Part shown: positions 6,503-64,000 of the stretch, one piece after another
Numbering within the stretch: position 1 is the stretch's first letter
Layout of the letters: each line of letters opens with the position of its first letter
Translations under genes and position numbers: made by a program
From: Megasphaera micronuciformis F0359
Lineage (GTDB): Bacteria > Bacillota > Negativicutes > Veillonellales > Megasphaeraceae
Assembly (NCBI RefSeq): GCF_000165735.1
Contig: NZ_GL538191.1
Span: 1 to 64,000, forward strand
Direction of reading: 5' to 3'
DNA length: 64,000 nt
The notes under the pieces: model-generated
Database searches by the model: none
What the model saw: the letters and a program-made list of their open reading frames with translations, nothing else
What the model was told of the DNA's origin: nothing

Positions 6503-9500
6503 TTACATGCCGAGTTTCGCCATTAACATAGCGATATTCTTCTTCATTTCCGCATTTTCGCTCTTCAAATCGGCTACTTCACCCTTCAAGCCCTGATTTT
6601 CTTCTTTCACTGCCGCCATTTCCTGTTGTAATGCGTAAGCCGAGCTGATCGGGCCGCGACGATAGCGGTCGGCAATAGCCGTTTCCGGATCGCGGTGACC
6701 GAGTTTCCACGTAACACCAGCATTAGCCATCATGTGGCTTGAACCGCCTGCCCAGGACATGCCTGCATGCATCATGAGCGATTCGTTTCTGTAATGAGCT
6801 ACCCCTAAAGCCAAAGCCGAGGTACCGCGATAGTTACCGTAGCCGGCCATAATCTGAGTCGGTTCCAACGGATCGTACTGAATCGGTTTCAGTGCGCCTA
6901 ATGCGGCTCCTAATGCACCGACTGTCTGGATTTCATCACCCAGGTTGTTGAGACGATTGTAAATAGTCGGATCCGGAGTACCGTTACCGCCTGCTACATG
7001 AAGGTCATAAGTAATTTCCTTCGTCGTCGTATTTTCGTTTCTCGTAACAGTTACGGATCCGTCATTGGATGTAACCTTCGTACGAGCGCCTTCCAACTGG
7101 CTGAGGTTTACGGCATCCGTCGAGCTTGTGCCCGGTGCCAGGTTGGTAATCTTGTTACCGCCCAGGCTCAAATTACCGTTATTAATCGTTACCGTGTTGG
7201 AGCCGAAGTCGATACGCGGAGCATTACTCGTTGTCGTACCGCTGCTGATGGACTTAATGTTCTGCAAGTTCGGGTTCAGAGCATACGTAATCTTCTGATC
7301 CGTATCGTTGCCGCTCATGGTTTCGCGTTTAACGACCATGTTGTCGCCTGCAACGAACTGCGTGCCCTTATTGACTACAGCTGCACCGGCAGCACTGCCC
7401 GATGCCACGGAACCCGTACCTGTAGCGGCCGTATCAACCTTCCGATTCGTAGCCGACAAATCTACGTCGACCTTGAAGATCTTCTTGCCTGTTGTATCCT
7501 TACGAGAGGAAACAGTCGTGTTATTACCGTTTTCCATGTCGATAAGGTTCGTAATAACGTTCTTGCCGTCGTTTGTAATATTTGACAAGTCGTTCTTGGC
7601 AATGCCTTCAATAACCGCTTTTTCATCAGCTACGTCGTCACCGTTGCCGTCCACATAGGTCATGGTTACCTTACCGTTGCTGTCAACAGTATAAGTTCCC
7701 GGCTTAATGTGGCGTTCAGCAGCCTTCAATTCGCTCTTGGCGTCTTTCAACTGGCTTACGTTAACAGCATCCGTATCGGCCGTACCTTTAGCAACGTTCG
7801 TAATCTTATTGCCGCCGTTGTTGAGGCCGTCAGATCCGAGATGAACATCCGTCGTCGTGCCGCCTGTCGGTGCCTTAATGGTAATACCGCCGTTGTTAAC
7901 CGTCGTATCACCCATCTTGACACTGCCGCCGGCCGTCAAATCAAGGTCCTTGGACAGCTGTACTTTAAGCTTGCCGTTTACGTTATTGACGCCGATATTG
8001 TTATCCGTAAGCTTCGTCTTATCAGCACCGCCGACAATGTCGACAACCGTATTGAGTTTCTTGCTGATAACCTTCGAAGAATCCGTCTGGCCGTCGTCAC
8101 CGGCAAACTTCATGCCGTCGTCAAGTGTTGCTACCTGATGGTCTTTATTGTTCGTTTCGTCATGGTATACGATACGCGTCGTGTTCGTGCCGTCAAGACC
8201 CTTAGCTCCGTCTTTACCTTGAATGGTAATGCCGTCGCGGCCGTTTGTGCCGTTCAAGCCGATGGAGCCGTCCTTGCCGTTAATCACAACTGCCGAACCG
8301 TCTGCACCCTTAACGCCTACCTTACCGTCTTTTCCCGGCGTTCCCGGTTTACCTACTTCGATTTCGTCGCTCAGGCCGTACTTAATAACCGTATTGCCTG
8401 CACTGTCGTTCGTCTGGGTAATGGTGACGTTCTTTCCTGCCTGGAATTCAACAGCCTTGCTGTCCGTAATATCCTGAGTCGTATCACCCGAGTGTGTACC
8501 TTCGCCTGCAGAAGACTTAGCTACCCACTTGCTCATGCCGCTTGCCGGTGTGAAGCTGCTCAAGTCGACTACCGCCGTCTTTCCGGCTACGTCGTTTCCG
8601 TTACCGTCTACGTAAGTAAGAGTTACCTTACCGGCTGTATTCGGCGTATACGTACCCGGTTTGATGTGAAGTTCATCTTCCAGGTTCGCTACCTTATGCG
8701 TTACCGTAGAGCCCGGTGTGGCACCCGGCGTCGTATCCGGCGTCGTGTACGTAATGCGGTCGCCTGCGTAGTTAATCGTCGTGTGGTTACCTACAGGATC
8801 GCCCAACTGGATTGTCTTCGTTTCTACCGTATTCAAGCCTTTTACAGTCTTGTTCAGCTTAATCGTCAACGTATCCGTGCCGTCTGCTACCACTGCGATA
8901 TTGCCTGCCGCGCTGTCGAAGGCATTCGCTTCCGCTTCCGTTACGCCTTCACCCTTTACCTTAACCAAGCTGTTGAGCTTGTGTTTGTTTTCCGTAGACG
9001 TGTTGTTACCCGTAAAGCGTAAGCCGTCGTCCAGTGTTGCTACTTCATGCTTACCCGTATGGTCTTCATATACGACACGCGTGGTTGTCGTTCCGGGAGC
9101 ACCGTTTACACCGGGCTGACCTTTTTCAACATGAATGTCTACACGACTCGTACCGTTAATACCGTCCACACCGTCTTTACCATTAATGCCAATAGTACCG
9201 TCTTTGCCGTTTTTACCCGTAACGGTAATCGTTTCGGTCTTCAGGTCTTTATCGAGCTTCACGTCAATCGTCGTGTTGCCGCTTGCATCCTGGTCGATGA
9301 ACGTCTTGATGTTCGAACCGTCATAGTTCGTGTCGGCCTTCGTGCCCGCACCTTGTACCTTAACCGTCGATCCGAGCTTGTTCGTCTTCACGCCGCCCGA
9401 GTTGGCGTCAAACTTAAGACCCTTGTCCGTTAAGCCGTCGGCCGTGTTCTTCAAGTCCGATACGTTAACGGCACTGTTCGGGTTGTTCGTATTAGCCGCG

Positions 9501-12500
9501 TCGAGTTTATCCAGGAACGTAGCTCCCGTCTGGTTGGAGATCGAGCTTGCTACATTGTTCAGACGCATCGGAGCCGTCGTCGAGTTGTTGCCGTCGTTCA
9601 TGGACGCAATGACATCCGACTTCGCTACCAAGTTGCCTTGTCCTTCTGCTTTATCATCGTAGAAGTTGCCGTCGTTATGCAGATATACCTTCGTGCCGTC
9701 CGCCTTCGTGTACGTTACGGGAAGTTGTGCGTTGTTTACGACCTTCTGCGAGTTGACTGCCAAGTCATACTTGTGGTCCGGTGACGTACCGTTATCCGTT
9801 ACTTTGACCGTACCGTCTGTCGATTCAACAATCGTATTCGTGCCGCTGCCGCCTGTGGACAGATCGGAGAAGTCGATGACCGCCTTCGTGTCGCTTACAG
9901 CCGTGCCGTTTCCGTCGTTATATACCAACGTAACTTTCTTCGTCGATGCATCGTACTTGTAAACGGCATCCGTACCCGTCGTCTGCGTCGTTTCCGTCGA
10001 GCCTGTCGGTACGTTTGTCGGACGAATGTGGCGTTCTTCCGCCTTTAACTTATAAAGCTGCGAGCCGTTTACGGCTTCTGTCGACGTGCTGCTGATTTCA
10101 CCCGGAGATACGTTGGTAATCTTGTTACCGCCCATGCTCAGGTTGCCGCCGTTAATAACCACCGCCGGCGTATTGCTTGCGCCGCCCGGAGTGGTGTTAA
10201 GCGTAATCGTCGTGCCGCCGTTTTTAATGGTATCAATATCTTTCAGGTTCTTGGAAAGCTGTACTTTGAGCTTGCCGTTACCGTCGTTGTTAACACCGAT
10301 GTTGCCGTCCGTTAAATTCGTAGCGTCCGCTCCGCCGATGATATCGAGCGTTTCGTTGAGCTTCTTATTAACGACTTTGGTCTTATCCGTACCCTGAGCG
10401 TCATCGCCTGCATACTTCATGCCGTCGTTCAGTGTTGCCACTTCTTCTTTGCTGCCGTCCGGCTTTTCGTATACAACGCGAGTCGTCGTCGTTCCCGGTG
10501 CTCCGTCTACGCCCGGCTTGCCGTCACGAGTTACCGTAATGGTCGTCGTTTGTCCATCCGCACCGTTAATACCGATCTTGCCGTCTTTGCCGTCTTTACC
10601 CGTTGCCGTAATCGTATCCGTTTCCAGGTTTTTATCGAGCTTTACATCAATGGTCGTATTACCGACGCTGTCTTGATTAATGATGGTTTTAACGTTCTTG
10701 CCGCTGTATTCCGTATCGGCTTTAGCACCTTCGCCTTGAACCTTAACCGTAGAACCGAGCTTGTTCGTCTTTACGCCGCCCGAGTTGGCATCGAATTTGA
10801 GACCCTTTTCCGTCAAGCCGTCTGCCGTATTCTTTAAGTCCGTTACGTTGACCGCTGCATTTTGCGTCTTCGTATCGCCTGCCGCCGCATCGAGTTTATC
10901 GAGGTACGTCGGCGACGTCACGCCCGGAGTCGTATGGTTGGAAATAGCGCTGCCCACGTTATTGACGATCATAGTACCGCCCGTCGTGGCTCCGCTCGGA
11001 TCCTTAAAGGAAGCAATAACGTTGGAATTATTTACTTCCGTGCCGCCCGTCGCAGACGTATAGAACTTACCGTCGTCGTGGAGGTATACCTTGTTGCCGT
11101 CCTTATCCGTATAAACTACGGGGCTTGTCGTGCTGACCGTATAGGTCTTTTGTCCCGTCGTCGCATCGGATGTAGACGTAACCGTTACGTTATCACCGGC
11201 TTTAACAATAGTACCGAGGCCTGTAATCGTCTTTTTACCGTCATTGGTAATATTGGTTAAACTCGTATTAGCCAAGTCCGAGTCGTTAAATTTCAATGTA
11301 ATTTTTGAATCTTTCGTACCGTCATCGGCTGCTACGGTGCTGATACGGCCGGTTCCTTCAACCTTCAGAGAACCGTCGTGAACGAGGAAGTCCGATTTTC
11401 CCGTATTGCCTTTTACAATCACACCGACATTCTTCAACTGAGCCACGTTGACGGCATCATAGTCGTCGGAACCGCCGGCTACGTTGATGATTTGGCGTTT
11501 TTCTATGTCATTGCCGACAGAAACGGCACCTTGAGTCGCGCTTGCTGCAAATACGGTCGGATTGTATTTACGGTTATGAATAACCGCTCCGTTTGCATAA
11601 GCCGCATCATAAGCATCCGATTTGGGATCCGTTGTAGCTCTGGAAGAATCTGCACCCGAACCGATAGCAACACCGCCTCTCACGGTCGTCTGTGCGCCCG
11701 TACCGATAGCCGTCGCATCATACGCATTCGAAACCCGTGCACCCCAGCCCATAGCCGTAGACCGCACGCTGTCCGTACCCGATACATTAGCCGTTCTGCC
11801 GATAGCTACGGACTCTCTGGCTTCCGTATACGCACCGTGACCGATAACCGTACTGTCTGAAGCACCTTGTCTTGCCTGAGCACCCTGACCGATAACCGTC
11901 GAATAATGAGTGTTCTTCCCTGCCGAGCTGTCTTTACCGATAGCCACCGTCTCGTTGGACTGTTCGCTTACAGTCGCATTGGTACCGATAGCCAACGTAT
12001 CGCCTGCATTATATGTATCGGTGGCTGTATTTGTACCGTCTCCCGAATGAATAGTCGACGTTTCCGTATTGTAGCCGCTCGCACCTACAGCACCGCCCGT
12101 ACCGGAATAGGAATAAGTCGACGTAGCATCCTGAGCCTTTGTATTAGCTTTCCTGCCGATAGCCATGGAATTTGAAGCAGAAGCCTCAGCCGCACCGCCA
12201 ATAGCATAGGCAGTCTCGGCTGTTGCGTGTGCCGAGAAACCAATGGCATAGGCTCCTTTCGCAGTGGCCCTTGTATCATAACCCATAGCATAAGCACCAT
12301 TTCCTGAAGCCTGTCCCCTGTCACCCAATGCAACTGAACGAACTTCAGACGCTGTAGCTCGATAGCCTATTGCCGCAGACTGTGCCCCCGATGCGGTCAC
12401 TTGATCACCAATAGCAATAGCACTTGTATTGGTCGCGTTTGTTTGAAACCCTATTGCCGTAGACTGTGCTCCCGACGCAGTATTCTGACTACCAACGGCC

Positions 12501-13603
12501 GTAGCATCATTTATTATCCCCTTATTTTTAAAACCGATTGCTGTAGATTGGAAGCCTGTCGCTTCCGATTGATCACCGAAAGCGGATGCACTCTGATCCT
12601 TTGCTTTCGCCGCATTACCGACAGCCGTTGCACCAGTACCCGTCGCTTCCGATTGATCACCGAAAGCGGATGCACTCTGATCCTTTGCTTTCGCCGCATT
12701 ACCGACAGCCGTTGCACCAGTACCCGTCGCTTCTGTCGACGTACCCATAGCCGTAGAATTTTCACCCGACGCGGCAGCTCTGAAACCTATAGCATTGGAA
12801 TTATTTCCCGAAGCCGTAACTGTATTGCCGATAGCTGTAGCATTCTGAGCTGTACCTTTCGCCACATTCCCGACAGCTACAGCCCAGCGACCGGTGGCTT
12901 CACTATTAACACCTAATGCCGCAGAACCGTCGCCACTTGCTGTATTATGATTACCGACACTGGTTGCCATATTCCCTGTCGCCTTATTTTCCGCACCAAG
13001 CGCCGTCGCATAATCCGTAGTAGCGCTAGAACGACTGCCGACAGTTGTCGCATATTCCCCTGTCGAAATTTTGTTGCCACTAGGTACTTCGGCATTTACA
13101 TAGTCACCGATAGCAATAGAAGCATGCTTATCCGCATAAGCCACATTCCCCATCGCCACGGATGCATCCCCTGAAGCCTTTGCCCAAGCACCGATAGCCG
13201 TAGACGCACCGCCTGTCGCTTCATTTTGGTTACCGATTGCCAATGCAGAATTTCTCGTCGCCTTATTGCCCGCACCGATAGCCGTACGACCGTCTTGACC
13301 GGGAGTTGCTGCCGTGACATCATTTTGATAGCCGATGGCAATATAGTTAACGGCATTCGCATCGCTAGTCCCAGTATTCTGCGGTTTTCCGTAAGCTGAA
13401 ATATTGACCTTACTTCCCGACGTATCAACAGTCCCTTGATGGGGAGCCGCCTGGACTCCATCCATGCCAACGCCGGCCATCATGAGGCCTGCCAAAACGG
13501 TTGCCAAAACCTTTTTCTTGCCGCCGTTTGACTTGGCATATTCCGACACAACTACATAACACTGTTTAGACTTACTCCAAACAATCTTAAAAACCTTATT
13601 CAT
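6503..13603 (-). CDS. Trimeric autotransporter adhesin TAA1 (YadA-like, 2366 aa)
   Basis: Giant surface adhesin (type Vc secretion) that should form a homotrimer. It begins with an extended signal peptide region ([19 protein letters not shown]) and a hydrophobic signal to about residue 52. A long YadA-type beta-roll head of AIGxxxxAxGxxSxAxG repeats runs to about residue 700. A neck ([15 protein letters not shown]) follows, then a stalk with several DAVNVSQL necks and G-x-y runs such as [13 protein letters not shown]. The barrel anchor is near 2230-2302 ([24 protein letters not shown] to GVTWKLG). Unlike YadA, the chain continues 64 residues past the barrel: [12 protein letters not shown] and a heptad coil ending [13 protein letters not shown], expected in the periplasm. 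The receptor is unknown. Confidence 0.95.
   Translation of the reverse strand: [2366 protein letters not shown]
12558..12725 (-). repeat. Two exact 84-bp direct repeats in the TAA1 head
   Basis: Two consecutive 84-base units appear identical by eye. Each encodes 28 residues, two head-repeat turns including [19 protein letters not shown]. The lack of synonymous divergence suggests a recent duplication. Confidence 0.85.
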
Positions 13604-15897: not shown

Positions 15898-16494
15898 TTA
15901 TAATTGTTGACGTAAATTTACGATACGTCCTTCTTCATAGGGCGAAATTAATTGTCTATCCGCATCCATACCGGCTTGCAGTGAAAAGAGTACCGTTTCA
16001 TTTAAATAGAACCGTAATTCATTGTTTTCGACTTGTCGTGTATTGTCAGCCAAAATATTCAGGAAGTCTTGTTCAAACGTTGCCTTGTTCTCCGGCGTTA
16101 CATAGGAATGAGTGGCAAAAAATGTTTCATAGTCATGATAAAGCTTATAGACCGCCTGTTTGCCGTACGCTGCTTCCTTCCAGCCATGACTGTCACGATA
16201 CAGATTGACGCGAACGTACATATAATGCAGAACCTGATCGTTATACCAACCCTGTTCGGATTTTACGCCCACACCGACTTCCTTGACCAACTGCCCGCCT
16301 CTTTGTGCCTGTAGGGTCGTAAATTGTTGCAACGCCTTATACACTTCCGTATTCGGAACGACGATAGCCGTCATTTCCTGAACTGCCGTCAAATCCCGAC
16401 TCGACGGTGCCGGTTGGGATAAGGGGTCGACGGCAGCATAAGCCGTAGCGCTGACAGACAAGGCCAAGGCTGCAGTAATCAGTTTTTTCAACAT
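15898..16494 (-). CDS. Secreted protein encoded directly behind TAA2 (candidate TAA partner)
   Basis: Unrecognised 198-residue protein with a Sec signal peptide (MLKKLITAALALSVSATAYA, cut near residue 20-21). The mature part starts AVDPLSQ, has VPNTEV at 46-51 and NNELRFYLNETVLF at 157-170. These match, in order and spacing from the ends, the DPLL, VPNQEV and NEELRHYMNEGVWF landmarks of the protein behind TAA1. That protein has about 50 more residues in the middle. The rest is polar and probably helical. The ATG follows AAGGAGG. It is separated from TAA2 by 58 bases containing a GC-rich hairpin. I infer a periplasmic partner of the TAA; there is no direct evidence of mechanism. Confidence 0.8.
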   Translation of the reverse strand: MLKKLITAALALSVSATAYAAVDPLSQPAPSSRDLTAVQEMTAIVVPNTEVYKALQQFTTLQAQRGGQLVKEVGVGVKSEQGWYNDQVLHYMYVRVNLYRDSHGWKEAAYGKQAVYKLYHDYETFFATHSYVTPENKATFEQDFLNILADNTRQVENNELRFYLNETVLFSLQAGMDADRQLISPYEEGRIVNLRQQL

Positions 16495-16552: not shown

Positions 16553-19500
16553 TTACTTCAGACCCGCTTTTTCCATTAAGAGGGCAATTTGAGCCTTCAT
16601 TTCTTCATTATCGGCCTGAACCTTCCGATACGCTTCAGTCAGTTCTTCTTCATGGTGTTTAATACGGGCGTTTTCAGCCTTCAGTGCCGTTACTTCATCT
16701 TGCATTACGTATACGGAGCTGATAGGACCGGCTTTGTAGCGATCGGGAATGGCTTTCTTTTCAGCCGATCGACCGAACTTGTACGTTACGCCCGCATTGA
16801 CGGCGTTATCCTGTTGTCCGAAGGAGGCACCCACGTGGAGCAACGTATTTTCATTCGTGTAATGGGCCAAGCCGAGTGCTACGGACGTACTGTTACCGTA
16901 CGAACCGACGGCCGCCATAACCTGTGTAGGTGCAATAGGATCATAAGCCAAGGGGTGTAATCCCGCCAAGGCTGCCGATGCGGAACCGGCATTATCCACC
17001 TTAACCTGTACGCGACGAAGCTGGCTTACATTGACCGCATCGTCATCTAAAGTGCCGGCTGCCACTCCGTGAAGCTGTTGTCCGCCGTTATTAAGACCCG
17101 TTCCCGTCAGTCTGACCCCTGTTGTCGAAGTGCCGACAGGTGTGAAGGTAATACCGCTACCGCCCATGGTCATGGACGATGTCACGGTCGGAGCCCCCGG
17201 TCGACGATCTTCACCGAGAACCGGTCCGTTTGTCATCTCTCTCGGCGTTGACTCGGGAGCCGTAGTCGACGTGGTAAAGGTAATAGTACCGTCACCCATA
17301 TTGATGTCCTTAGCCAACTTAATATTGTAGCCGTCTTGAGCGGAATTCGATACTACGGCAATGTTGCCGTCCGTCAAGCGCGACAGATTCTTCGCATTGC
17401 CGCGCAGATTTAACGTATCTCCGAGGCCGACCGAAACCTTACCCCAGTCGCCTTGGAAAACACGACCGCCGGAAATCTTATCACTGACGACCTTGAGCTG
17501 ATCTTCCGTTGCCGCTCTGCCGCTTGTAATATTCGGGTTCTTTACGTCCCACGTCGTATTGCTTAAGCCGCCTACATAGCTGCCGCCGCCTTGTCGACCT
17601 ATACTTACTCCGCCGACACCGATATTGCCGTTTACACCGTCAATACTTACAGCTCCGGCACCGCTACCGATGGTCAATTTGTCCGAAAGGCCTACGACAA
17701 CCTTACCGCCGCTTACGGACGTGCGTACGTTCGTACCGTCGCCGCCGATAGCCACCGTTTCGCCCAAGCCTTTCATAATCGACTGGCCGTCATCAGCAGT
17801 CACGCCGAATCCTTTACGGCTTATACTGTCCGCCATATCATGAAGTTGGCCGCCGTTAACGGCATCCGTACTGCCGGCACCGATACGTCCTGCCGCTACA
17901 TTCGTAATAACCTTATTTCCCGCATCGATACCGTTTTTCGTAACCGACGGACCACCGTTAATAACCAGTCCGTCAGAGGTTACGGTCGTATCACCGGTCG
18001 TCACCTTATTGGCCGTAACCGTGTCAACGCGCACATCCTTATTCAGAGATACGCGAACCTTACCGTTTTCAACGGATGTGGAAATATTGGCTCCGTCGCC
18101 GCCGATAGCGACGGTTTCGCCCAAGTTTTTCTTAACCGACTTACCGTCATCAGCCGTCACACCGAAGGCTCCCTGTTTGATCCCGTCTACAGCCTTGTCA
18201 AGCTGCCCCTTATTGACAGCATCATGTTCGTCTTCGCCGTCTTTAAGGTTCGTAATGCGATTGTTCGTTACGTTAATATTGCCGCCCGTAATCGTTACGG
18301 CATCTTCACAATGGTCTTTCAAGGTTATCTTCGTATCGCCGTTAGAAATAGAGGTAATGCCTCTCAAGTCCTTCGCCAACCGAACCTTCAGGTTATCCGT
18401 TCCGTCAGAGACGACACCGATATTATCCTCTGTCGTAAGCAGAGTTCTGTTCGTAATACCGCCGATAACGGAAACCTTGTTGTTCAATTTTTTAATAATA
18501 TCCGTTCCCGTATCGCCGCCGAAGACCATGCCGTCTTCCATCGTTGCAACTTGATGTTCTCCCGTCTTGTCTTCATAAACGATACGCGTAATTCCGTCCG
18601 TACCGTCTACACCTTTTTCACCCTTAATTCCCTTGGAGACATCATCATAACCGTTCTTCACAGTCAGGTCGATACCGTTAGTACCGTCCTTACCGTTGGT
18701 TCCCGCCGGCCCGGTTAAGCCGATATGGCCCACACCGTCTTTACCGTATACGGTTACGGCATCCTTACCGTCCTTACCGCTCACACCGATCTTGCCGTCT
18801 TTTCCGTCTTTACCTACTTGAACGGATTCGGTAACAAGGTTTTTATCCATCATGACGGAAATATTGCCGTTTGCATCTTTTACGGTCTTAATATTTTCAC
18901 TGCTATATTCGGAATCTACCTTCGTGCCGCCGCCAACGATACCCAAGGTTTCACCGAGGTTTTTGTGAATTACCTGCCCGTCGTTACCGACGAAGTTCAT
19001 GCCCTTGGCCGTCAGGTTGTTCGTCACATTCGTCGTCGTATTCGTTACGGCGTTATTTACCTGATCCGTCAGGTAATCTACATTTACGACTTCGCTTCCG
19101 TCGTTACCCGTCGCATAGGCTACGTTGGTAATATGCGTGCCGCCCGTCTTGTTAACGTACGTGCTGCCCGCCATGGTAACGGAGTTTTTATTCACCACGC
19201 CGCCTGTTACATCATACTGGACGGAACGGTTCGACAAGTTGTCTACAGCCGTCTTGGAAGCCACATCCTTTATCGTAACGGTTTCTTTTACGCCTGCATG
19301 CTTCTTATCTTCTACCGTCAAGTTCACCTTGCCGTCAGCATCGACAGAGTAGGCACCGTCGGCACTTCCGTCATTAGCTACTAAACGGAAGTCGGACATA
19401 TTACCGCTCACGTTATTAATAGCTTCATTTACGACTTTCAGCTGATCTTCCGTAGCCGCTCTGCCTGAAACAGCCGTACCGTTCCACGTCTTGTTATCAA

Positions 19501-22500
19501 GGCCCGTCACATAGTTACCCGTCACGCCTCCTGAGACTTGCGTACCCGTCTTCACATTGCCGGCCGTTACGCTCGTAAGTCCCGTTACTTCTTTGGCAAG
19601 CTGTACCTTTAAGACTCCGCCTATGTTGTTGACGCCGATATTTCCGTCAGACAAAGCTCCCGCAGCACCGCCGCGAACGTCCAATCGTTCGTTAAGTTTC
19701 TTGGAAATCACCGTACCGTTATCTCCGGCAAACTTCATGCCGTCGTCCAGGGTTGCCACTTCGTGATTTCCCGTCTTGTCTTCATAAACAATGCGAGTAA
19801 CTCCGTCCGTACCGTTGACACCCGGCTGGCCTTTTTCAACATGAATATCTACACGGTTCGTACCGTTAATACCGTCTACGCCGTCTTTACCGTTAATGCC
19901 GATGATACCGTCCTTGCCGTCTTTACCGACTTGAACGGATTCGGTAACAAGGTTTTTATCCATCATGACGGAAATATTGCCGTTTGCATCTTTTACGGTC
20001 TTAATATTTTCACCGCTATACTCGGAATCGATCTTCGTGCCGCCGCCGACGATACCCAAGGTTTCGCCGAGATTTTTATGAATTACCTGCCCGTCGTTAC
20101 CGACGAAGTTCATGCCCTTGGCCGTCAGGTTGTTCGTCACATTCGTCGTCGTATTCGTTACGGCGTTATTTACCTGATCCGTCAGGTAATCTACATTTAC
20201 GACTTCGCTTCCGTCGTTACCCGTCGCATAGGCTACGTTGGTAATATGCGTGCCGCCCGTCTTGTTAACGTACGTGCTGCCCGCCATGGTGACAGAGTTT
20301 TTATTCACCACGCCGCCTGTTACATCGTACTGTACGGAACGGTTCGACAAGTTGTCTACAGCCGTCTTGGAAGCCACATTCTTAATCGTAACGGTTTCTT
20401 TTACGCCTGCGTGCTTCTTATCTTCTACCGTCAAGTTTACCTTGCCGTCGGCATCGACACTATACGCCTTATCGGCCGTGTTGTTTTCCACCAGACGGTA
20501 ATCTGTCGCACCGGCTCCTTGCGTTGAAATGGTATCTTGCAAGACTTTCAACTGATCTTCCGTAGCCGCTCTGCCTGAAACAGCCGTACCGTTCCACGTC
20601 TTGTTATCAAGGCCCGTCACGTAGTTACCCGTCACGCCGCCTGAGACTTGCGTACCCGCCTTCACATTGCCGGCTGTTACGCTCGTAAGTCCCGTGACTT
20701 CTTTGGCAAGCTGTACCTTTAAGACTCCGCCTATGTTGTTGACGCCGATATTTCCGTCAGACAAAGCTCCCGCAGCACCGCCGCGAACGTCCAATCGTTC
20801 GTTAAGTTTCTTGGAAATCACCGTACCGTTATCTCCGGCAAACTTCATGCCGTCGTCCAGGGTTGCCACTTCGTGGTTGCCCGTCTTGTCTTCGTAAACA
20901 ATGCGAGTAACACCGTCCGTACCGTTGACACCCGGCTGACCTTTTTCAACATGAATGTCTACACGACTCGTACCGTTAATACCGTCTACGCCGTCTTTAC
21001 CGTTAATGCCGATGATGCCGTCCTTACCGTCTTTACCCGTAACAGTTACCGTTTCAGCCGTCACGTCTTTGCCGAGGGCTACATCAATAACCGTATCGGC
21101 ACCTGTCTTTTTAATGGACGTCTTAATATTCGTGCCGTCACCTTTAACGGTCACCTTAGAACCCAGGGCACTCGTCTGTTCACCGCCCACATTGGCATCG
21201 AAACGAAGTCCCTTGTTCGTAACTTCTTCCACCTTCGAGTCAAGCTGCCCCTTATTGACCGCATCATGACTGTCTACGGCGTTTTGGACGTTTGTGATCC
21301 GATTATTCGAGACGCTGACGTTTCCGCCCGTAATTGTTACGCCGTTGCCGCCTACACTCGTATTGTTGTTTAAGACAATACTCGTATTGCCGTTCGATAT
21401 GGACGTAATGTCCGTCAAATTCTTCGCTAAGGCAATAGAAATTTTACCGTTATCGTTAGCCGTTTGAATATTCGAATTTTTTCCGACAATGCCCAAGGTA
21501 GATCCCAAGTCCTTGTGAATAGATTGCCCGTCGTTACCGACGAAGTTCATGCCCTTGGCCGTCAGGTTGTTCGTCACATTCGTCGTCGTATTCGTTACGG
21601 CGTTATTTACCTGATCCGTCAGGTAATCTACATTTACGACTTCGCTTCCGTCGTTACCCGTCGCATAGGCTACGTTGGTAATATGCGTGCCGCCCGTCTT
21701 GTTAACGTACGTGCTGCCCGCCATGGTGACAGAGTTTTTATTCACCACGCCGCCTGTTACATCGTACTGTACGGAACGGTTCGACAAGTTGTCTACAGCC
21801 GTCTTGGACGCTACATCCTTAATCGTAACCGTCTGCTTCATTCCTGCATGATTCTTGTCTTCTACCGTCAAGTTCACCTTGCCGTCGGCATCGACGCTAT
21901 ACGCCTTATCGGCTGTATTGTTTTCCACCAAACGGTAATCCGTCGCACCGGCGCCTTGAGTCGAAATGGTATCTTGCAAGACTTTCAGCTGATCTTCCGT
22001 AGCCGCTCTGCCTGAAACAGCCGTACCGTTCCACGTCTTGTTATCAAGGCCCGTCACGTAGTTACCCGTCACGCCGCCAGATACTTGCGTACCCGTCTTC
22101 ACATTGCCGGCCGTTACGCTCGTAAGTCCCGTTACTTCTTTGGCAAGCTGTACCTTCAAGACTCCGCCGACGTTGTTGACGCCGATGTTGCCGTCAGACA
22201 AAGCTCCTGCAGCACCGCCGCGGACATCCAACCGTTCGTTGAGTTTCTTGGAAATCACCGTACCGTTATCTCCGGCAAACTTCATGCCGTCGTCCAGGGT
22301 TGCCACTTCGTGATTCCCCGTCTTATCTTCATAAACAATGCGAGTAACGCCGTCCGTACCGTTGACACCCGGCTGACCTTTTTCAACATGAATGTCTACA
22401 CGACTCGTACCGTTAATACCGTCTACGCCGTCTTTACCGTTAATGCCGATGGTGCCGTCTTTGCCGTTTTTGCCCGTAACGGTTACCGTTTCAGCTGTCA

Positions 22501-24988
22501 CGTCTTTGCCGAGAGCGACGTCAATAACCGTGTCGGCACCCGTCTTCTTAATAGACGTCTTAATATTCGTGCCGTCGCCTTTAACGGTCACCTTCGACCC
22601 CAAGGCACTCGTCTGTTCACCGCCCACATTGGCATCGAAACGAAGTCCCTTGTTCGTAACTTCTTCCACCTTCGAGTCAAGCTGCCCCTTATTGACCGCA
22701 TCATGACTGTCTACGGCGTTTTGGACGTTCGTGATTCGGTTATTCGATACGCTGACATTACCGCCCGTAATGGTCACGCCGTTGCCGCCTACACTCGTAT
22801 TGTTGTTCAAGACAATACTCGTATTGCCGTTCGATACGGATGTAATGTCCGTCAAATTCTTCGCTAAGGCAATAGAAATTTTACCGTTATCGTTAGCCGT
22901 TTGAATATTCGAATTTTTTCCGACAATGCCCAAGGTCGAGCCCAAATCCTTGTGAATAGATTGTCCGTCATTACCGACAAAGTTCATACCTTTGGCCGTC
23001 AGGTTGTTCGTAATATTCGTCGTCGTATTCGTTACGGCATTATTTACCTGATCCGTCAGGTAATCTACATTTACGACTTCGCTTCCGTCGTTACCCGTCG
23101 CATAGGCTACGTTGGTAATATGCGTGCCGCCCGTCTTGTTAACGTACGTGCTGCCCGCCATGGTAACGGAGTTTTTATTCACCACGCCGTTTGAAATATC
23201 GTAGTGAACGGCGTCTTCATCGTGACCGCCCTTTGCGGAAATACGGATTTGCCCGTTTGCCGACTTTTCGATGGTCACGTTTTCACCGTTTACAAGATTG
23301 ACCTTACCCCGGCTGGGCGGTACATCTTTCCCGTTAGCCTGTAGCGTCCAAATATCCGTCTTCTTCGCCAAGTCGCAGTCTTTAAAGCCGATCTCATAAT
23401 GTCTGTTTCCGTTTGCATCGATACCGCCGTTATCTTTAACGGTAATACGACTCCCCGGAACGGCGGACACAGTCGTATCTCTACCGTTTACAGTATAAGT
23501 TTTTGTTCCGTTAGCAACAGTTGATGTAACGGTCGTATTCGAACCGCCTTTCACTACGACGGCCTTCTGAGCTTCGTTGTGAATAACCGTTTTGCCTTCA
23601 TTGGTAATGTTGGATAAGTTAATGTTAGCCGACGCATCAATCTTTTGACGAACCGCATCGGTTAACCCGACAGTAACCGTTCCGCTTCCTGCCTGAGTGG
23701 TCACATACTGATTATCACCTTGAATTTTTAAAGTCTGACTATCCAATAAGACATCCGTATGACCCGTATTGGCACCCACTTTGAGGTTCACATTGCGCAA
23801 TTGCGCTACATTGACAGCATCCGTATCCTTGCTGCCGGCTGCTACATGGGTAATCTGTCTTGTATGGCCTTCATTACCGACGGAAACGGCTGCATATTCG
23901 GACCGTAAAGCAGAGCCGCCAAGTCCGGTATAACCGTTTGTCCGCCCGTCTTCGGTTTTAACATTATAGCCCCATTCACCGCTTGTTCTGTCGGCCCTCG
24001 AGTTGGAGCCCAAGGCTACGCCGTTTACCGTCGGTGCCGAAGCGCTTTTACCGATAGCCACGGCATTATCGACACACGCTTTGGCATCGGTACCGTAAGC
24101 AATAGAGCTGGCACCGCCGGCCGTACTGCGACTGCCGAAGGCTATACTGTCTACGCCCGTAGCGTGAGCCGTCTGCCCCAAAGCAATGGCACGATCGGCC
24201 GTAGCCTGCGTATTGTTTACACCGTCATAGGCGGCAATGGGAGTTCCCTTGGAATCATATTGTGTCTTCGGTGCTATGGTGCCGATGGCGATGGACTGAT
24301 TGCCCGTAGCCGTAGACGAATGTCCCATAGCCAGGCTGGCTTCCCCCTTAGCTACGGCAGCCGTCCCGATAGCCGCCGCATACTTACCGCTTGCATAAGA
24401 CTGACGCATCATGGCCAGAGAGTTAAATTCCGCAGCCTTGGCCCCGGCACCGATGGCGACAGCGGCAATCTTTTCGGCAGACGCATAGGGACCTACGGCA
24501 ACGGCCAGCGAACGAGCCCGCGAATAATCACCGAGTGCCGTACCGGATGCCGTCTGTACCTCAGGGTCATAAGCGTTGGCGGCGTTACCGAGTGCAATGC
24601 CGTACAAATGCGTCCCCGTATATAATTGATACCGACCTGTGCCGTCCCACTGTAAGATCCCCGTGTTGTCATAGGCCTTATTACCCGGCGTCCCGTAGTC
24701 GTACATCTTCGTCGCCGTACCGCCTTCCAAGGCAGACATCCACCCGGATGATAAGCGAATGCCCGCACTTCTTGCAGGGTTGGGATCGGTCGGTCCCGGT
24801 TCGTCAGTGACGGCAGCAAAGACGGGTACACAACCGGTTAAAAATAAGACCGCCAATGTTGAAATAAGTGTGTATCCTCTGTCTTTGGATGTTTCGGACT
24901 TAGTTTTTGAATGAGACTTTGCTATTTCCGAAGTAACAACATAACAGTTTCTGGCTTTGTTCCAAATAACCTTAAAAATCTTATTCAT
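16553..24988 (-). CDS. Trimeric autotransporter adhesin TAA2 (YadA-like, 2811 aa)
   Basis: Giant surface adhesin with the same plan as TAA1 but a shorter head and longer stalk. The extended signal region (MNKIFKVIWNKARNCYVVT) leads to a hydrophobic stretch, residues 40-60, that contains LTGC at 50-53. Beta-roll head repeats run to about residue 340, then the neck HVAAGSKDTDAVNVAQL. The stalk of about 2200 residues is built largely from tandem modules. Each has VVNKNSVTMAGSTYVNKTGG, DGSEVVNVDYL, G-x-y runs and NKTWNGTAVSGRAATEDQL. The barrel (LAGLHPLAYDPIAPTQVMAAVGSYG to GVTYKFGRS) is followed by about 70 residues: DRYKAGPISSVY and a coil ending IALLMEKAGLK. Translation may be coupled to an upstream 20-codon ORF. 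Confidence 0.95.
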   Translation of the reverse strand: MNKIFKVIWNKARNCYVVTSEIAKSHSKTKSETSKDRGYTLISTLAVLFLTGCVPVFAAVTDEPGPTDPNPARSAGIRLSSGWMSALEGGTATKMYDYGTPGNKAYDNTGILQWDGTGRYQLYTGTHLYGIALGNAANAYDPEVQTASGTALGDYSRARSLAVAVGPYASAEKIAAVAIGAGAKAAEFNSLAMMRQSYASGKYAAAIGTAAVAKGEASLAMGHSSTATGNQSIAIGTIAPKTQYDSKGTPIAAYDGVNNTQATADRAIALGQTAHATGVDSIAFGSRSTAGGASSIAYGTDAKACVDNAVAIGKSASAPTVNGVALGSNSRADRTSGEWGYNVKTEDGRTNGYTGLGGSALRSEYAAVSVGNEGHTRQITHVAAGSKDTDAVNVAQLRNVNLKVGANTGHTDVLLDSQTLKIQGDNQYVTTQAGSGTVTVGLTDAVRQKIDASANINLSNITNEGKTVIHNEAQKAVVVKGGSNTTVTSTVANGTKTYTVNGRDTTVSAVPGSRITVKDNGGIDANGNRHYEIGFKDCDLAKKTDIWTLQANGKDVPPSRGKVNLVNGENVTIEKSANGQIRISAKGGHDEDAVHYDISNGVVNKNSVTMAGSTYVNKTGGTHITNVAYATGNDGSEVVNVDYLTDQVNNAVTNTTTNITNNLTAKGMNFVGNDGQSIHKDLGSTLGIVGKNSNIQTANDNGKISIALAKNLTDITSVSNGNTSIVLNNNTSVGGNGVTITGGNVSVSNNRITNVQNAVDSHDAVNKGQLDSKVEEVTNKGLRFDANVGGEQTSALGSKVTVKGDGTNIKTSIKKTGADTVIDVALGKDVTAETVTVTGKNGKDGTIGINGKDGVDGINGTSRVDIHVEKGQPGVNGTDGVTRIVYEDKTGNHEVATLDDGMKFAGDNGTVISKKLNERLDVRGGAAGALSDGNIGVNNVGGVLKVQLAKEVTGLTSVTAGNVKTGTQVSGGVTGNYVTGLDNKTWNGTAVSGRAATEDQLKVLQDTISTQGAGATDYRLVENNTADKAYSVDADGKVNLTVEDKNHAGMKQTVTIKDVASKTAVDNLSNRSVQYDVTGGVVNKNSVTMAGSTYVNKTGGTHITNVAYATGNDGSEVVNVDYLTDQVNNAVTNTTTNVTNNLTAKGMNFVGNDGQSIHKDLGSTLGIVGKNSNIQTANDNGKISIALAKNLTDITSISNGNTSIVLNNNTSVGGNGVTITGGNVSVSNNRITNVQNAVDSHDAVNKGQLDSKVEEVTNKGLRFDANVGGEQTSALGSKVTVKGDGTNIKTSIKKTGADTVIDVALGKDVTAETVTVTGKDGKDGIIGINGKDGVDGINGTSRVDIHVEKGQPGVNGTDGVTRIVYEDKTGNHEVATLDDGMKFAGDNGTVISKKLNERLDVRGGAAGALSDGNIGVNNIGGVLKVQLAKEVTGLTSVTAGNVKAGTQVSGGVTGNYVTGLDNKTWNGTAVSGRAATEDQLKVLQDTISTQGAGATDYRLVENNTADKAYSVDADGKVNLTVEDKKHAGVKETVTIKNVASKTAVDNLSNRSVQYDVTGGVVNKNSVTMAGSTYVNKTGGTHITNVAYATGNDGSEVVNVDYLTDQVNNAVTNTTTNVTNNLTAKGMNFVGNDGQVIHKNLGETLGIVGGGTKIDSEYSGENIKTVKDANGNISVMMDKNLVTESVQVGKDGKDGIIGINGKDGVDGINGTNRVDIHVEKGQPGVNGTDGVTRIVYEDKTGNHEVATLDDGMKFAGDNGTVISKKLNERLDVRGGAAGALSDGNIGVNNIGGVLKVQLAKEVTGLTSVTAGNVKTGTQVSGGVTGNYVTGLDNKTWNGTAVSGRAATEDQLKVVNEAINNVSGNMSDFRLVANDGSADGAYSVDADGKVNLTVEDKKHAGVKETVTIKDVASKTAVDNLSNRSVQYDVTGGVVNKNSVTMAGSTYVNKTGGTHITNVAYATGNDGSEVVNVDYLTDQVNNAVTNTTTNVTNNLTAKGMNFVGNDGQVIHKNLGETLGIVGGGTKVDSEYSSENIKTVKDANGNISVMMDKNLVTESVQVGKDGKDGKIGVSGKDGKDAVTVYGKDGVGHIGLTGPAGTNGKDGTNGIDLTVKNGYDDVSKGIKGEKGVDGTDGITRIVYEDKTGEHQVATMEDGMVFGGDTGTDIIKKLNNKVSVIGGITNRTLLTTEDNIGVVSDGTDNLKVRLAKDLRGITSISNGDTKITLKDHCEDAVTITGGNINVTNNRITNLKDGEDEHDAVNKGQLDKAVDGIKQGAFGVTADDGKSVKKNLGETVAIGGDGANISTSVENGKVRVSLNKDVRVDTVTANKVTTGDTTVTSDGLVINGGPSVTKNGIDAGNKVITNVAAGRIGAGSTDAVNGGQLHDMADSISRKGFGVTADDGQSIMKGLGETVAIGGDGTNVRTSVSGGKVVVGLSDKLTIGSGAGAVSIDGVNGNIGVGGVSIGRQGGGSYVGGLSNTTWDVKNPNITSGRAATEDQLKVVSDKISGGRVFQGDWGKVSVGLGDTLNLRGNAKNLSRLTDGNIAVVSNSAQDGYNIKLAKDINMGDGTITFTTSTTAPESTPREMTNGPVLGEDRRPGAPTVTSSMTMGGSGITFTPVGTSTTGVRLTGTGLNNGGQQLHGVAAGTLDDDAVNVSQLRRVQVKVDNAGSASAALAGLHPLAYDPIAPTQVMAAVGSYGNSTSVALGLAHYTNENTLLHVGASFGQQDNAVNAGVTYKFGRSAEKKAIPDRYKAGPISSVYVMQDEVTALKAENARIKHHEEELTEAYRKVQADNEEMKAQIALLMEKAGLK
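19182..23169 (-). repeat. Tandem stalk repeats of TAA2 (1437, 1437 and 1113 bp)
   Basis: The landmark encoding NKNSVTMAGS recurs at 23169, 21732, 20295 and 19182. The first two intervals are both 1437 bases (479 residues) and nearly identical in sequence. The third is 1113 bases and carries a different, shorter segment after GNDGQ (VIHKNLGETLGIVGGG). All are multiples of three, so unit loss or gain keeps the frame. Confidence 0.9.
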
Positions 24989-46396: not shown

Positions 46397-47127
46397 TAAA
46401 CAAATCCTCTTTCATACATAATGACGGAACAAGCCGCCAAAGCCGCCGTTTCTGCTCTCATAATTCTTTTGCCGAGAGATACGACGGCATATTGTTCGCA
46501 AGATGACGTAAGCTCCTCTATTTCTTCCGGAGCGTATCCGCCTTCCGGACCGATACAGATCACAGTATCTTCCCCGGCCGCCCGCTCAACGGCAATCCGT
46601 GCCGCTTTTTCTTCCCCTTCGTAAGGGATAAAGAAAAAGTACCGGTCGTATTCTTGTATAAGTTCTTTTAAGGTCCTCACTTCATCAACGGAAGGGACTC
46701 GAGTACGACCACATTGCTTTGCCGCCTCGAGGGCTATTTTCTGCCATCTTGCACAACGTTCTTTACGACGTTTTTCATCTAATTTTACTACACAGTGTTT
46801 CATTTGTATAGGAACGACGCGGTCTACCCCCAACTCCGTAGCCTTCTGAACCAACCAGTCGAAACGATCATTTTTCAACAAAGCGGCAGCTAAAATCAGC
46901 TCATGTCGCTCTGTTTCATCTTCAGGTACAATCTTTTTCAACGGCCGCATCAAGGCCCTTTCACCGGCCGTATCTGCAATAAGACAAGTATAGGCAATCC
47001 CCGTACCATCCGATACGGTAAGAACATCTCCCGTAACGTGACGCAATACGCGAACAACATGGCGAGAGTCCTCGGGGGATAAATAGAATTCCCCTTCTAT
47101 AGGAAAATCTGTAAATAATTTACGCAT
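46396..47127 (-). CDS. rsmE: 16S rRNA (uracil1498-N3)-methyltransferase RsmE
   Basis: SPOUT-family enzyme methylating U1498 of 16S rRNA. The 243 residues have an N-terminal PUA-like domain (EFYLSPEDSRHVVRVLRH). The knotted C-terminal domain has KATELGVDRVVPIQ, EAAKQCGRTRVP, IGPEGGYAPEEIE and VSLGKRIMRAETAALAA. The ATG at MRKLFTDF has AAGGAG 7 bases upstream and overlaps the prmA stop as TAATG; ten upstream codons in frame lie within prmA and were rejected. Cotranscribed with prmA and mtaB. Confidence 0.95.
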   Translation of the reverse strand: MRKLFTDFPIEGEFYLSPEDSRHVVRVLRHVTGDVLTVSDGTGIAYTCLIADTAGERALMRPLKKIVPEDETERHELILAAALLKNDRFDWLVQKATELGVDRVVPIQMKHCVVKLDEKRRKERCARWQKIALEAAKQCGRTRVPSVDEVRTLKELIQEYDRYFFFIPYEGEEKAARIAVERAAGEDTVICIGPEGGYAPEEIEELTSSCEQYAVVSLGKRIMRAETAALAACSVIMYERGFV

Positions 47128-48002
47128 TATATACTCCTTAACACGAGGGCATACCAACCGTTTTCAAATGCTTTCCGTTCAACGGAAAAACCGTATCTTT
47201 CAGCATAGTTTATGACTTCTCCTACGCGTTCATCAATAATACCGCTCGTAATGAACAGACCGCCTTCTTTTAAGTAATCTTTTAAATTCGGCAACAAACG
47301 AAGAATCAGGTCCGTAACCAGGTTTCCTACAATAAGATCAGCCTTTTCTCCTCGAGGCACCATTTGTTCTAACAGGTCACTGACAACCAAGGTCGTACAG
47401 GCATCTGCAGCATTTAATTTTATATTCAGTCGAGCCTGTTCTACAGCCTGCTCATCGTAATCGCCGGCCCGCACCGTAGAAGCTCCGCACTTTGCAGCTG
47501 CAATAGCCAGAATACCGGTGCCCGTACCGACATCGTATACGACTTGTCCCTGTTTAACAAAGTCTTCCAGGAAACGAATACACATGCAAGTTGTTTCATG
47601 AAATCCGCTGCCGAAGGAAGCTCCCGGCTCGATACGAATAACTTCCTCACCTTCTCGTACCGACACGGACTCTCCTACCGGTGCCGCCCAAAAACGTGCA
47701 GATACTTTTTTAGGATGAAAGAACTCCTGCCATGCATATAACCAGTCCGTTCCCTCACCTTGCCGAACGGTCAAATCATAGTCTTGCCATGTATGTTCCT
47801 GCCACAAAGAATCTAAGAGTCGACGAATTTCTTCAGCCACACGTTGTCCCTCAGCTTCCGTATACACAGTCAGAGATTTCATGCCCTTTTCATCCGTTTC
47901 TCCGTCTGTTACGGATACATTCACCAAGGATTCCCAAATAAGGGATGAAACACTGTCGGCACTTTCAACCGGCACGTGTAATCCTATTTCCGTCCACTCC
48001 AT
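47127..48002 (-). CDS. prmA: Ribosomal protein L11 methyltransferase PrmA
   Basis: AdoMet-dependent enzyme that methylates amino groups of ribosomal protein L11. The 291 residues have an N-terminal substrate-recognition domain (MEWTEIGLHVPVESADSVSS). The Rossmann domain follows with VYDVGTGTGILAIAAAKCGAS, DYDEQAVEQARLN and the catalytic-region GNLVTDLILRL. AAGGAG precedes this ATG at 8 bases; a longer frame upstream would include the terminator hairpin. The dnaJ-operon terminator ends only about 20 bases before the start, so expression depends on read-through or on a promoter inside dnaJ. Confidence 0.95.
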   Translation of the reverse strand: MEWTEIGLHVPVESADSVSSLIWESLVNVSVTDGETDEKGMKSLTVYTEAEGQRVAEEIRRLLDSLWQEHTWQDYDLTVRQGEGTDWLYAWQEFFHPKKVSARFWAAPVGESVSVREGEEVIRIEPGASFGSGFHETTCMCIRFLEDFVKQGQVVYDVGTGTGILAIAAAKCGASTVRAGDYDEQAVEQARLNIKLNAADACTTLVVSDLLEQMVPRGEKADLIVGNLVTDLILRLLPNLKDYLKEGGLFITSGIIDERVGEVINYAERYGFSVERKAFENGWYALVLRSI

Positions 48003-61144: not shown

Positions 61145-61759
61145 TTAAAAAGCATCCTTATATATTTCACGATAATCGGCTTCCGTAAGAGTCACAAAGT
61201 TATGTGCCGTCAATCGCTTCTGCTCCGTTTCCACTGAATGAGCAAATGCCGGTATCATATCTTCCGTAACGCCATATTCTCTAAGTCTTTTCTTCGGCAA
61301 AATCACATCAATAAGACGAGCCAATTCAGTTAACACATCTTTTTCGGAAACCCCTAAAATCCGTGCTGCAAAAGCCTTAAATACACTTAACTCACCGCCG
61401 TCTCGACGTTGTTCATAAGCCTTCAAAACATTTGTAAACACGGCATAATTGGATTCACCGTGAGCAACATGACAGGTAACGCCCAAGGGGTAACTCATGG
61501 CGTGTACGGCTGCACATCCTACCGTGCCGAAAGCAATCCCGGCATATAGTGCGGCTGTCAGTAAGTCTCCATATAAGGGTTCACGTGCATCCTTACCGTG
61601 TTCTCGAATATACCGGTAGGCACAAAGAATCATTTCCATAGCCTTATAGCTGAAAAGCTTGGTCGTTTCCGTCGCAGCCGGCGATAAGGCTGACTCCACG
61701 GCATGAACTAAAGCATCGACGGAACTGGTTGCAAAAACCTTGAAGGGCTTGTTTACATA
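61145..61759 (-). pseudogene. 5'-truncated 4-hydroxybutyrate dehydrogenase (iron-type alcohol dehydrogenase) remnant
   Basis: About 200 codons matching the C-terminal part of iron-dependent alcohol dehydrogenases. From memory the closest is the clostridial 4-hydroxybutyrate dehydrogenase: FATSSVDALVHAVES, FSYKAMEMIL, AGIAFGTVGCAAVHAMSYPLG, the metal-binding HVAHGESNY and LREYGV. The family is about 370 residues. The first 165 or so, including the NAD-binding GGGSxxD region, are missing, so it cannot be functional. Extending the frame upstream only adds residues encoded by the TAA3 terminator, and there is no ribosome site. The break coincides with the end of the TAA3 unit. Confidence 0.88.
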
Positions 61760-61768
61760 AGTACTATT

Positions 61769-61805
61769 AAAAAACAGGCACTCTTTAGTCTGAAAGAGTG
61801 CCTGT
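61769..61805 (-). terminator. TAA3 terminator
   Basis: Stem ACAGGCACTCTTT / AAAGAGTGCCTGT with a 6-base loop followed by TTTTTT on the minus strand, 17 bases past the TAA3 stop. Confidence 0.92.
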
Positions 61806-61821
61806 CTGTAGTACATCAAAG

Positions 61822-64000
61822 CTATTTGGTTTTTGTTGTCTTTACAGCTTTTGCTGCCTTTTCGGTCTTTGCAGTTTTTGTATTTTTCTGCGGTTGAACA
61901 TGTCCGCCGTATACATCGCGATAATCTTTCATCTTCTTGTTATCTTTGTTGTTAACACGAACACGTTCTACTTTATGACGGTCGTTATCTTTACCGGAAA
62001 TGCGGTCAACACGAGTTCGATCCAATTCTTGAATACGATTCAATTCAGGTTCGAATTCGCCCATAGCTTTCGCCATCTTCGGATCAATAGGCGCTCCGTT
62101 TTGCAATGCACGGTAAATAACAGCCGCAAATTCATAACGAGTCATCGAGCGGTCACCCTTGAATTCGCCATCAGGATAACCAACAACCAGGCCTCTATCA
62201 GCTAAGGATTTAACATATTCATATGCCCAGTGGTTTTCCGAAACGTCAGGGAAGTTAACATTACCCGTACTCGTCTGGCCCACAGCCATTTTACCGGATT
62301 CCATTGCATCAATCTTTGCGTTTTGTGCTTTGACGATAGCTTTTAATGCTTCTACTTCTTTAGCCAAGGCTACTTGTGAACGTGTTACATGTTTCCCTTG
62401 CCCAAATTTCAAGCTGACTCCCGCATTTACCAGGTTTTCACCGGCACCGAAAGAACCGCCTACGCTGAACATGACATCTTCGTTCGGACGATAGTATGCA
62501 CCAACAGCCACAGCGTTAGCACTATTATAGTTGCCATAACCTGCCGCAAAATCCCACTTATCATCCGGATCGAAGTCAAGAGGATGAAGGGCTGCCAATG
62601 CTGCAGCACCGGCACCAACACGATTTACTTTATCACCCAACTTATTAATGACGGCAGAATTAATATTATTGTTATTACCAATAGCCTGTTTTAATTGAGC
62701 CACATTGACTGCGTCTGTATCATTTGTGCCGGCAGCAACGCTCGTAATCTGACGAGTACGAGTGGTACCATCGCCTACAGATACAGCAGCGTCCGTTGCT
62801 TTCCATACAGATGTTGTGTTTGTCGATGCAGTGTGAGTCGACGGATCATATCCAACTGCACCTGCACCTACGGATGCAATAGAACCGGAACCAATAGCTA
62901 CCCCACCAGCTTTTGTTACATTGGTATTGCGTCCAATAGCGACCGCATCTGATACGTTAGTCGTGCTACCAGTATCATGCGATCCTAAAATTACGCTATT
63001 ATTCGCTCCCTGTAATGTTCTATTATCACCGATAACCACGGCATGATTAGTATCACTAATCGTATTTTCAGAGCCTGTAACCGTTACATGATTTACATTC
63101 GTTGCCGTATTATGAAAACCGGTAATAGAGTTGTTGGCACTTTTCGCACCGTTAGTCCCTGTTACTGTATTATTAACACCAATCATGGCTGTACGTAATG
63201 TATAATCAGCTTTATTTCCACCACCGAAGGCCATTGTGGAGCCACCGCTACTCGATGCCCGAATAGACGTTCGTAAGCTATCGGCAAAGTCTTTTGCTGA
63301 AGCGCCCCCATCAGTCGGGGTACCGGATAAGCTCGTATATGAGTTGGTAATTTCATTGCCGGCACCAAAAATAAGAGAGCCATTGGAATTAGCTGTGCGG
63401 TTAGCAACCCCTGTAATGGTATTGGCAACACCGGAATCGTGAACACCTGTTTTAGATTCAACGCTATTTAACGAACCGTTAATAGTAGCCCCTAAATTTT
63501 TCGTCGCATTAGATAAACGACCACCATTGTAGTCACTAGAAATAATGTTGTAGGACCCTGTACTCGTAGTAAAAGCACCATTACTAAAGCTATTAGCCCC
63601 TACGGTTGTAGTATATACGCCTAATGAATCAGTTCTAGTAGAAGCACTGTTCACCGTAGTATCGCCCAAATCTCCATTATAATTGTGAGAACCGACCATC
63701 GTACTCCCTGTACGAGCAAATGTGTTATCACCGATAGCAACACTTCCTACAACCTTAGTCGGATCAGCAGGAATTCTAGAAGAAGAGAACCAACTACCAC
63801 TATATGTTGTCTGACCAAAAGCAAAGCTGGCTTCTCCGCCACCAGCCATGTTTTCTATGTGTGCATTTTTACCAATGGCAATACTACCGCCTTGGCTGGC
63901 ATAGTTATCAATATTGGCTCCGTTACCTATTGCAACATCACCGGTTGCAGCGCTAGCACCATTAGAATAACTAATGCTGGCTCCTTGCCCAATTGCTACG
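61822..64000 (-). CDS. Trimeric autotransporter adhesin TAA3 with C-terminal SLH domain (5' end outside window)
   Basis: The frame is open to the right edge (VAIGQGASISYSNGAS is still in frame), so the N-terminus is missing; about 725 codons are visible. Beta-roll head repeats lead to one neck (SVAAGTNDTDAVNVAQLKQ) and almost directly to the YadA anchor (GAGAAALAALHPLDFDPDDKWDFAAGYGNYN to NAGVSLKFG), so there is no long stalk. Past the barrel comes a coil (VALAKEVEALKAIVKAQNAKI), then an SLH domain at 62107-62256 with FPDVSENHWAYEYVKSLADRG, GYPDGEFKGD and MTRYEFAAVIYRA. A charged helix and a Lys/Thr/Ala-rich tail end the protein. The SLH domain should bind peptidoglycan in the periplasm. Confidence 0.93.
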   Translation of the reverse strand, partial: VAIGQGASISYSNGASAATGDVAIGNGANIDNYASQGGSIAIGKNAHIENMAGGGEASFAFGQTTYSGSWFSSSRIPADPTKVVGSVAIGDNTFARTGSTMVGSHNYNGDLGDTTVNSASTRTDSLGVYTTTVGANSFSNGAFTTSTGSYNIISSDYNGGRLSNATKNLGATINGSLNSVESKTGVHDSGVANTITGVANRTANSNGSLIFGAGNEITNSYTSLSGTPTDGGASAKDFADSLRTSIRASSSGGSTMAFGGGNKADYTLRTAMIGVNNTVTGTNGAKSANNSITGFHNTATNVNHVTVTGSENTISDTNHAVVIGDNRTLQGANNSVILGSHDTGSTTNVSDAVAIGRNTNVTKAGGVAIGSGSIASVGAGAVGYDPSTHTASTNTTSVWKATDAAVSVGDGTTRTRQITSVAAGTNDTDAVNVAQLKQAIGNNNNINSAVINKLGDKVNRVGAGAAALAALHPLDFDPDDKWDFAAGYGNYNSANAVAVGAYYRPNEDVMFSVGGSFGAGENLVNAGVSLKFGQGKHVTRSQVALAKEVEALKAIVKAQNAKIDAMESGKMAVGQTSTGNVNFPDVSENHWAYEYVKSLADRGLVVGYPDGEFKGDRSMTRYEFAAVIYRALQNGAPIDPKMAKAMGEFEPELNRIQELDRTRVDRISGKDNDRHKVERVRVNNKDNKKMKDYRDVYGGHVQPQKNTKTAKTEKAAKAVKTTKTK

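Follow-up and report, generated by a model that had tools for sequence, protein, structure and literature searches.

TAA3 and the order of its domains

The window, a stretch of 64,000 nucleotides corresponding to positions 1 to 64,000 of contig NZ_GL538191.1 of Megasphaera micronuciformis F0359, ends within a reverse-strand gene for a predicted trimeric autotransporter adhesin (TAA), referred to here as TAA3. In the ORF listing the frame (61822-63999) is open up to the window end, and its start is an ATG at contig position 64164 (L009:3165), preceded by an AAGGAG site; the gene spans 61822-64164 on the contig, and of the 780 aa of the whole protein the last 725 are encoded inside the window. 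The features of the gene are collected in Table 1.

Table 1. Features of TAA3 located in the window
Feature	Position	Strand	Basis
TAA3, trimeric autotransporter adhesin (predicted)	61822..64000, gene on to contig 64164	-	ORF and Pfam
YadA_stalk (neck), ahead of the barrel	62644..62751	-	PF05662, E 5e-8, residues 472-507
YadA membrane anchor; each chain gives four strands to a predicted 12-stranded trimer barrel	62404..62571	-	PF03895, E 1.4e-11, residues 532-587; genome scan
Predicted periplasmic coil, single 34-residue helix	62293..62394	-	AlphaFold helix 4-37; hydrophobic columns; barrel-SLH spacing
Single SLH, OmpM type	62125..62253	-	PF00395, E 3.3e-12, residues 638-680; OmpM1 8bys/8bz2/8bym, E about 1e-12; Foldseek 8bz2
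Post-SLH helices, EFxPEL motif	62020..62097	-	8bys alignment; model helices 104-123; F196 and E199 in 80/81 tails
C-terminal beta-hairpin, consensus RIRVDxI ... ERVRVN	61951..62019	-	R226 and R228 in 79/81 tails; model strands
Variable tail, ending Lys/Ala-rich; some members have a YRDVYG motif ahead of this end	61825..61950	-	Alignment

TAA3 begins with a normal signal peptide (MTQYAKKRLAATITAALIYTTLGGVSALAA), and Pfam annotation of the full protein returned, from the N to the C terminus, YadA_stalk, YadA_anchor and SLH, all of which pass the curated cut-offs and are joined without an intervening stop. The YadA anchor that marks type Vc adhesins is thus present, as are the signal peptide, head and stalk that precede it in this class; the head repeats were read by eye as the VAIGxxA type, and Pfam gave no YadA_head match in the full protein. 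By these features TAA3 is a type Vc adhesin, and it would form a trimer. Matches to the NCBIfam YadA and BimA models scored far under cut-off and are due solely to the anchor that these proteins have in common, and an Rfam scan of the window gave no matches.

The SLH lies C-terminal to the anchor on a single frame, as Pfam and the homology to published Veillonella parvula genes both indicate, and the post-barrel SLH put forward in the original prediction is therefore real; the three peptides quoted there (HWAYEYVKSLADRG, GYPDGEFKGD and TRYEF) were all located in TAA3. From the stalk onwards a single frame encodes the YadA barrel, a heptad coil of 34 residues, one SLH, a pair of short helices, a beta-hairpin that is conserved and a tail rich in Lys; 61822-62640 holds the end of the neck and everything from the barrel to the tail. 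The barrel, coil and SLH of the predicted anatomy stand, while the conserved hairpin module after the SLH had been overlooked.

Recurrence of the layout and its published counterparts

When the last 272 residues of TAA3 were used as query, 17 of 17 genomes from its family gave a match, and in each the top one covers both barrel and SLH; dozens of the matches extend in a single frame from the barrel through the coil to the SLH. For the wider class, a profile built from 30 barrel-coil-SLH tails matched Veillonellales families, a family with the Acidaminococcaceae pattern and a few others, among them a few Selenomonadaceae; in the remaining Negativicutes the best matches lie near E 1e-24, a size that fits an OmpM SLH alone. 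The named loci come from Veillonella, Megasphaera, Dialister, Acidaminococcus, Succiniclasticum, Phascolarctobacterium, Mitsuokella, Negativicoccus, Colibacter and Anaeroglobus, with the closest relatives of the TAA3 tail in Colibacter and Megasphaera-group species. As barrel and SLH share one frame in every genome of the family and in many from other Negativicutes families, the layout is neither a product of chance nor an assembly fault.

In a tree of SLH domains (80 TAA and 41 OmpM rows, 77 columns), the TAA and OmpM domains form separate groups, divided by a single branch with full support; some OmpM rows are fragments, yet none was mixed with the TAAs. This single split disfavours the idea that the TAA SLH arose from OmpM more than once; one ancient joining event explains it more simply. 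Since the tree is unrooted, rests on few columns and was sampled by query, it says only that there is no sign of repeated exchange between TAA and OmpM.

The core of the finding has already been published. In V. parvula, an SLH was described downstream of the YadA barrel in Vpar_0041, Vpar_0100 and Vpar_1664, with the proposal that it is periplasmic and touches peptidoglycan similarly to OmpM, the layout being restricted to Negativicutes (Poppleton 2017, PMC5491611); in strain SKV38 the anchor of every TAA was later reported to be followed by either an SLH or a coil (Bechon 2020, PMC7549365). Across the two papers, the SLH-bearing members are Vpar_0041, Vpar_0100 (VtaG), Vpar_1664 (VtaI) and VtaH, and in both the periplasmic, peptidoglycan-bound SLH is a proposal; the available parts of PMC5491611, PMC7549365 and PMC10628300 yielded no binding or topology experiment on SLH-bearing TAAs. 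The suspicion that similar proteins were known in Veillonella was therefore correct, and the predicted domain order, periplasmic placement and comparison with OmpM agree with what these authors proposed for the homologues.

Two of our matches fall in such genes: on the SKV38 chromosome (NZ_LR778174), 47207-47881 (L102) falls in FNLLGLLA_00037 (46910-47878) and 152788-153507 (L069) in VtaG (151792-153522), with 54% and 56% identity to the TAA3 tail, respectively. The V. parvula proteins share with TAA3 the YadA anchor and C-terminal SLH but differ in head sequence and in the extreme end of the tail, so TAA3 is another example of the published architecture in another genus. What goes beyond this literature, as far as the accessible text of these papers extends, is the residue count, the conserved hairpin and a pair of paralogues with and without SLH. 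A comparable arrangement is that of the Streptobacillus moniliformis TAAs, in which the YadA anchor is likewise followed by a domain that binds peptidoglycan, yet one of the OmpA fold (PF00691) in place of SLH (Bechon 2020, PMC7549365). The only OmpA (PF00691) protein in the M. micronuciformis genome is an ordinary OmpA-like one with no TAA part.

An OmpM-type SLH followed by a conserved hairpin

Among solved structures, the sequences nearest to the TAA3 SLH are those of V. parvula OmpM1 (8bys, 8bz2 and 8bym; best E 2.6e-13), and the similarity extends beyond the SLH into the EFxxEL helix, which reads EFSNEL in OmpM. In OmpM1, W34, G58 and the TRYE at 63-66 are residues of the sugar groove, and Y36 and Y65 are tyrosines that OmpM proteins of Negativicutes conserve and that may matter for polyamine (Silale 2023, PMC10628300). 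The equivalents of W34, Y36, G58 and T63-R64-Y65-E66 are all present in TAA3, in the stretches HWAY, FKG and TRYE; a lack of pocket residues, which would have spoken against wall binding, was thus looked for, and every OmpM1 residue named by Silale 2023 was found.

The same residues are kept by the related TAA tails (77 distinct sequences), with W34 in all 77, Y36 and R64 in 76 each, G58 in 75 and Y65 in 74, and by OmpM-like ORFs (Y36 in 56, G58 in 60 and Y65 in 61 of 62, the exceptions being mostly gaps). In contrast, none of 18 repeats from multi-SLH proteins, a small control that includes near-duplicates, has Y36, G58 (proline in all 18) or Y65. Retention of the OmpM signature in TAA tails and its loss in multi-SLH repeats favour a periplasmic ligand of the OmpM type over one of the S-layer type, and by these signature residues the TAA3 SLH appears to be of the OmpM wall-binding kind. 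Within the portions of this literature at hand, a count that separates OmpM-type SLH from multi-SLH repeats is a step beyond the published remarks. The genome also encodes a three-SLH-repeat protein (C1 4621-5100, L010; a 369-codon frame), which is without the OmpM tyrosines.

This signature also bears on where the SLH acts. SLH domains of monoderm S-layer proteins act outside the membrane, and that of TAA3 might be extracellular and bind cell-wall or S-layer material, either shed or from its neighbourhood; this is very improbable, as it bears the OmpM signature rather than the multi-SLH one and as the established structure of TAA barrels, with four strands per chain, puts the C-terminus in the periplasm.

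TAA3 itself is no OmpM. Both combine an outer-membrane barrel and a coil of similar reach with an SLH that carries the pocket residues and leads into the EFxxEL helix, but in OmpM (V. parvula OmpM1, PDB 8bym/8bys/8bz2; Mep45 of Selenomonas ruminantium) the order is N-terminal SLH, coil and C-terminal barrel, the barrel is a porin and the C-terminal hairpin is lacking. The reversed order and the YadA-type barrel set TAA3 apart, although it may work like OmpM.

The fold of the tail was modelled by AlphaFold as a single chain from a 59-row alignment (mean pLDDT 76, pTM 0.49), which gave the 34-residue helix, the SLH helices, two further helices and a hairpin (strands 126-132 and 141-146). With this predicted fold, Foldseek gave a single match below E 0.001, namely 8bz2, the crystal structure of the OmpM1 SLH. 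In the alignment of 81 tails the coil helix has an unbroken 3-4 heptad pattern with hydrophobic columns at 92/96/99/103/106/110/113, and the distance from barrel to SLH is narrow (42-62 residues) across related tails. At 1.5 Å per residue, 34 residues would reach ~50 Å, close to the 50-60 Å reported for the distal stalk of OmpM1 (Silale 2023, PMC10628300).

The hairpin is almost as conserved as the SLH. It had no Pfam match in the full protein and no counterpart was seen in OmpM, which has a coil there instead, and a description of it was not found in the available text of Poppleton 2017, Bechon 2020 and Silale 2023. One possibility, which we raise tentatively, is that this hairpin is a module of its own, so far undescribed, that either completes the trimer of SLH domains or touches the wall, or some other envelope component, at a second site; the tails would then form a TAA-specific wall-anchoring cassette distinct from that of OmpM.

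The conservation of SLH and hairpin across genera and families, together with the intact frame, makes it most doubtful that the tail is a decaying, functionless remnant of domain swapping, despite the fast swapping of domains in TAA repertoires (PMC7549365) and the cut gene for an iron-containing alcohol dehydrogenase (Fe-ADH) downstream at the TAA3 locus.

A putative wall anchor and its genomic setting

With the anatomy, conservation and OmpM-type signature residues of TAA3 established, we consider it likely that the tail fastens the adhesin non-covalently to the wall from within the periplasm, with trimeric state, topology (from the established structure of TAA barrels), ligand and mechanical role as follows. 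In TAA barrels every chain contributes four strands and hence ends in the periplasm. Three TAA3 chains would form one outer-membrane barrel through which the passenger would exit to the surface, and the C-terminus of each chain, because of the even number of strands, would lie in the periplasm; there the tails would zip into a coil of ~50 Å ending in three SLH domains, one per chain. As in OmpM, these could together form three wall-binding grooves and hold the adhesin non-covalently to polyamine-bearing peptidoglycan. A pulling force on the adhesin would then pass to the wall and not to the membrane alone, and tethering of the outer membrane would be a secondary benefit alongside OmpM. On this reading the SLH would bind the wall of this organism in the cell and may matter for holding the outer membrane, a role for which the genome has seven OmpM paralogues.

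Presence of an SLH is by itself no proof of binding, since OmpM1 bound sacculi as the full trimer but not through its SLH in isolation (PMC10628300). The wall chemistry is plausible, as the genome holds seven OmpM-like porin genes in tandem (about 10 kb; C33 757.8-767.9 kb, L013-L019) and one gene of the Orn/Lys/Arg decarboxylase family (PF01276), a match that denotes the family only and does not imply cadaverine or putrescine synthesis. A further match, to PF02784 (fold-III decarboxylase), was excluded from this argument, its substrate being unsettled.

In all eight TAAs of the genome the barrel is followed by a short coil, and TAA3 alone has an SLH after it, so the SLH is not needed for TAA function. 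For example, a paralogue on another contig (C12, L003) has 59% identity to TAA3 over residues 28-630 (head, barrel and coil) but ends at the coil, without SLH. In V. parvula, single mutants of the TAAs outside the cluster, including vtaG, vtaH and vtaI, had no aggregation defect (PMC7549365).

That seven sister TAAs manage with the coil only also weighs against the SLH being mainly a trimer-stabilising cap, which would lock the three chains or aid outer-membrane assembly, with wall binding secondary or absent. SLH-wall contact has been suggested to stabilise the trimer (Poppleton 2017, PMC5491611), OmpM SLH domains pack as a trimer (PMC10628300), and the conserved hairpin could contribute; however, conservation is strictest at the ligand-pocket residues, including the Y36 and Y65 that distinguish these domains from multi-SLH proteins, and we regard such a cap as unlikely. 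In diderm Firmicutes the wall-binding SLH has thus been joined to outer-membrane barrels in both orders, and the wall may serve as an anchorage for adhesins. The paralogue pair, alike save for the SLH cassette, offers a clean way to ask what a wall anchor adds to an adhesin.

Elsewhere in the window, two giant TAAs at 6503-13603 and 16553-24988 (-), of 2366 and 2811 aa, have stretches resembling collagen and carry an extended signal peptide (ESPR), and both continue 65-75 residues beyond the barrel into a coil without SLH. The 2811-aa TAA is adjoined by a 198-aa ORF (15898-16494, -) with no Pfam match. The seven OmpM genes compare with four OmpM in all in V. parvula, and the SLH of the seven reads G(V/L)DxxxFxG, against GYPDGxFKG in both V. 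parvula OmpM1 and TAA3. Directly behind the terminator-like hairpin of TAA3, 61145-61819 (-) encodes the C-terminal part only (PF25137) of Fe-ADH; in relatives this gene is longer and apparently full, with open frames of 371-383 codons, and TAA3 seems to have replaced its front half.
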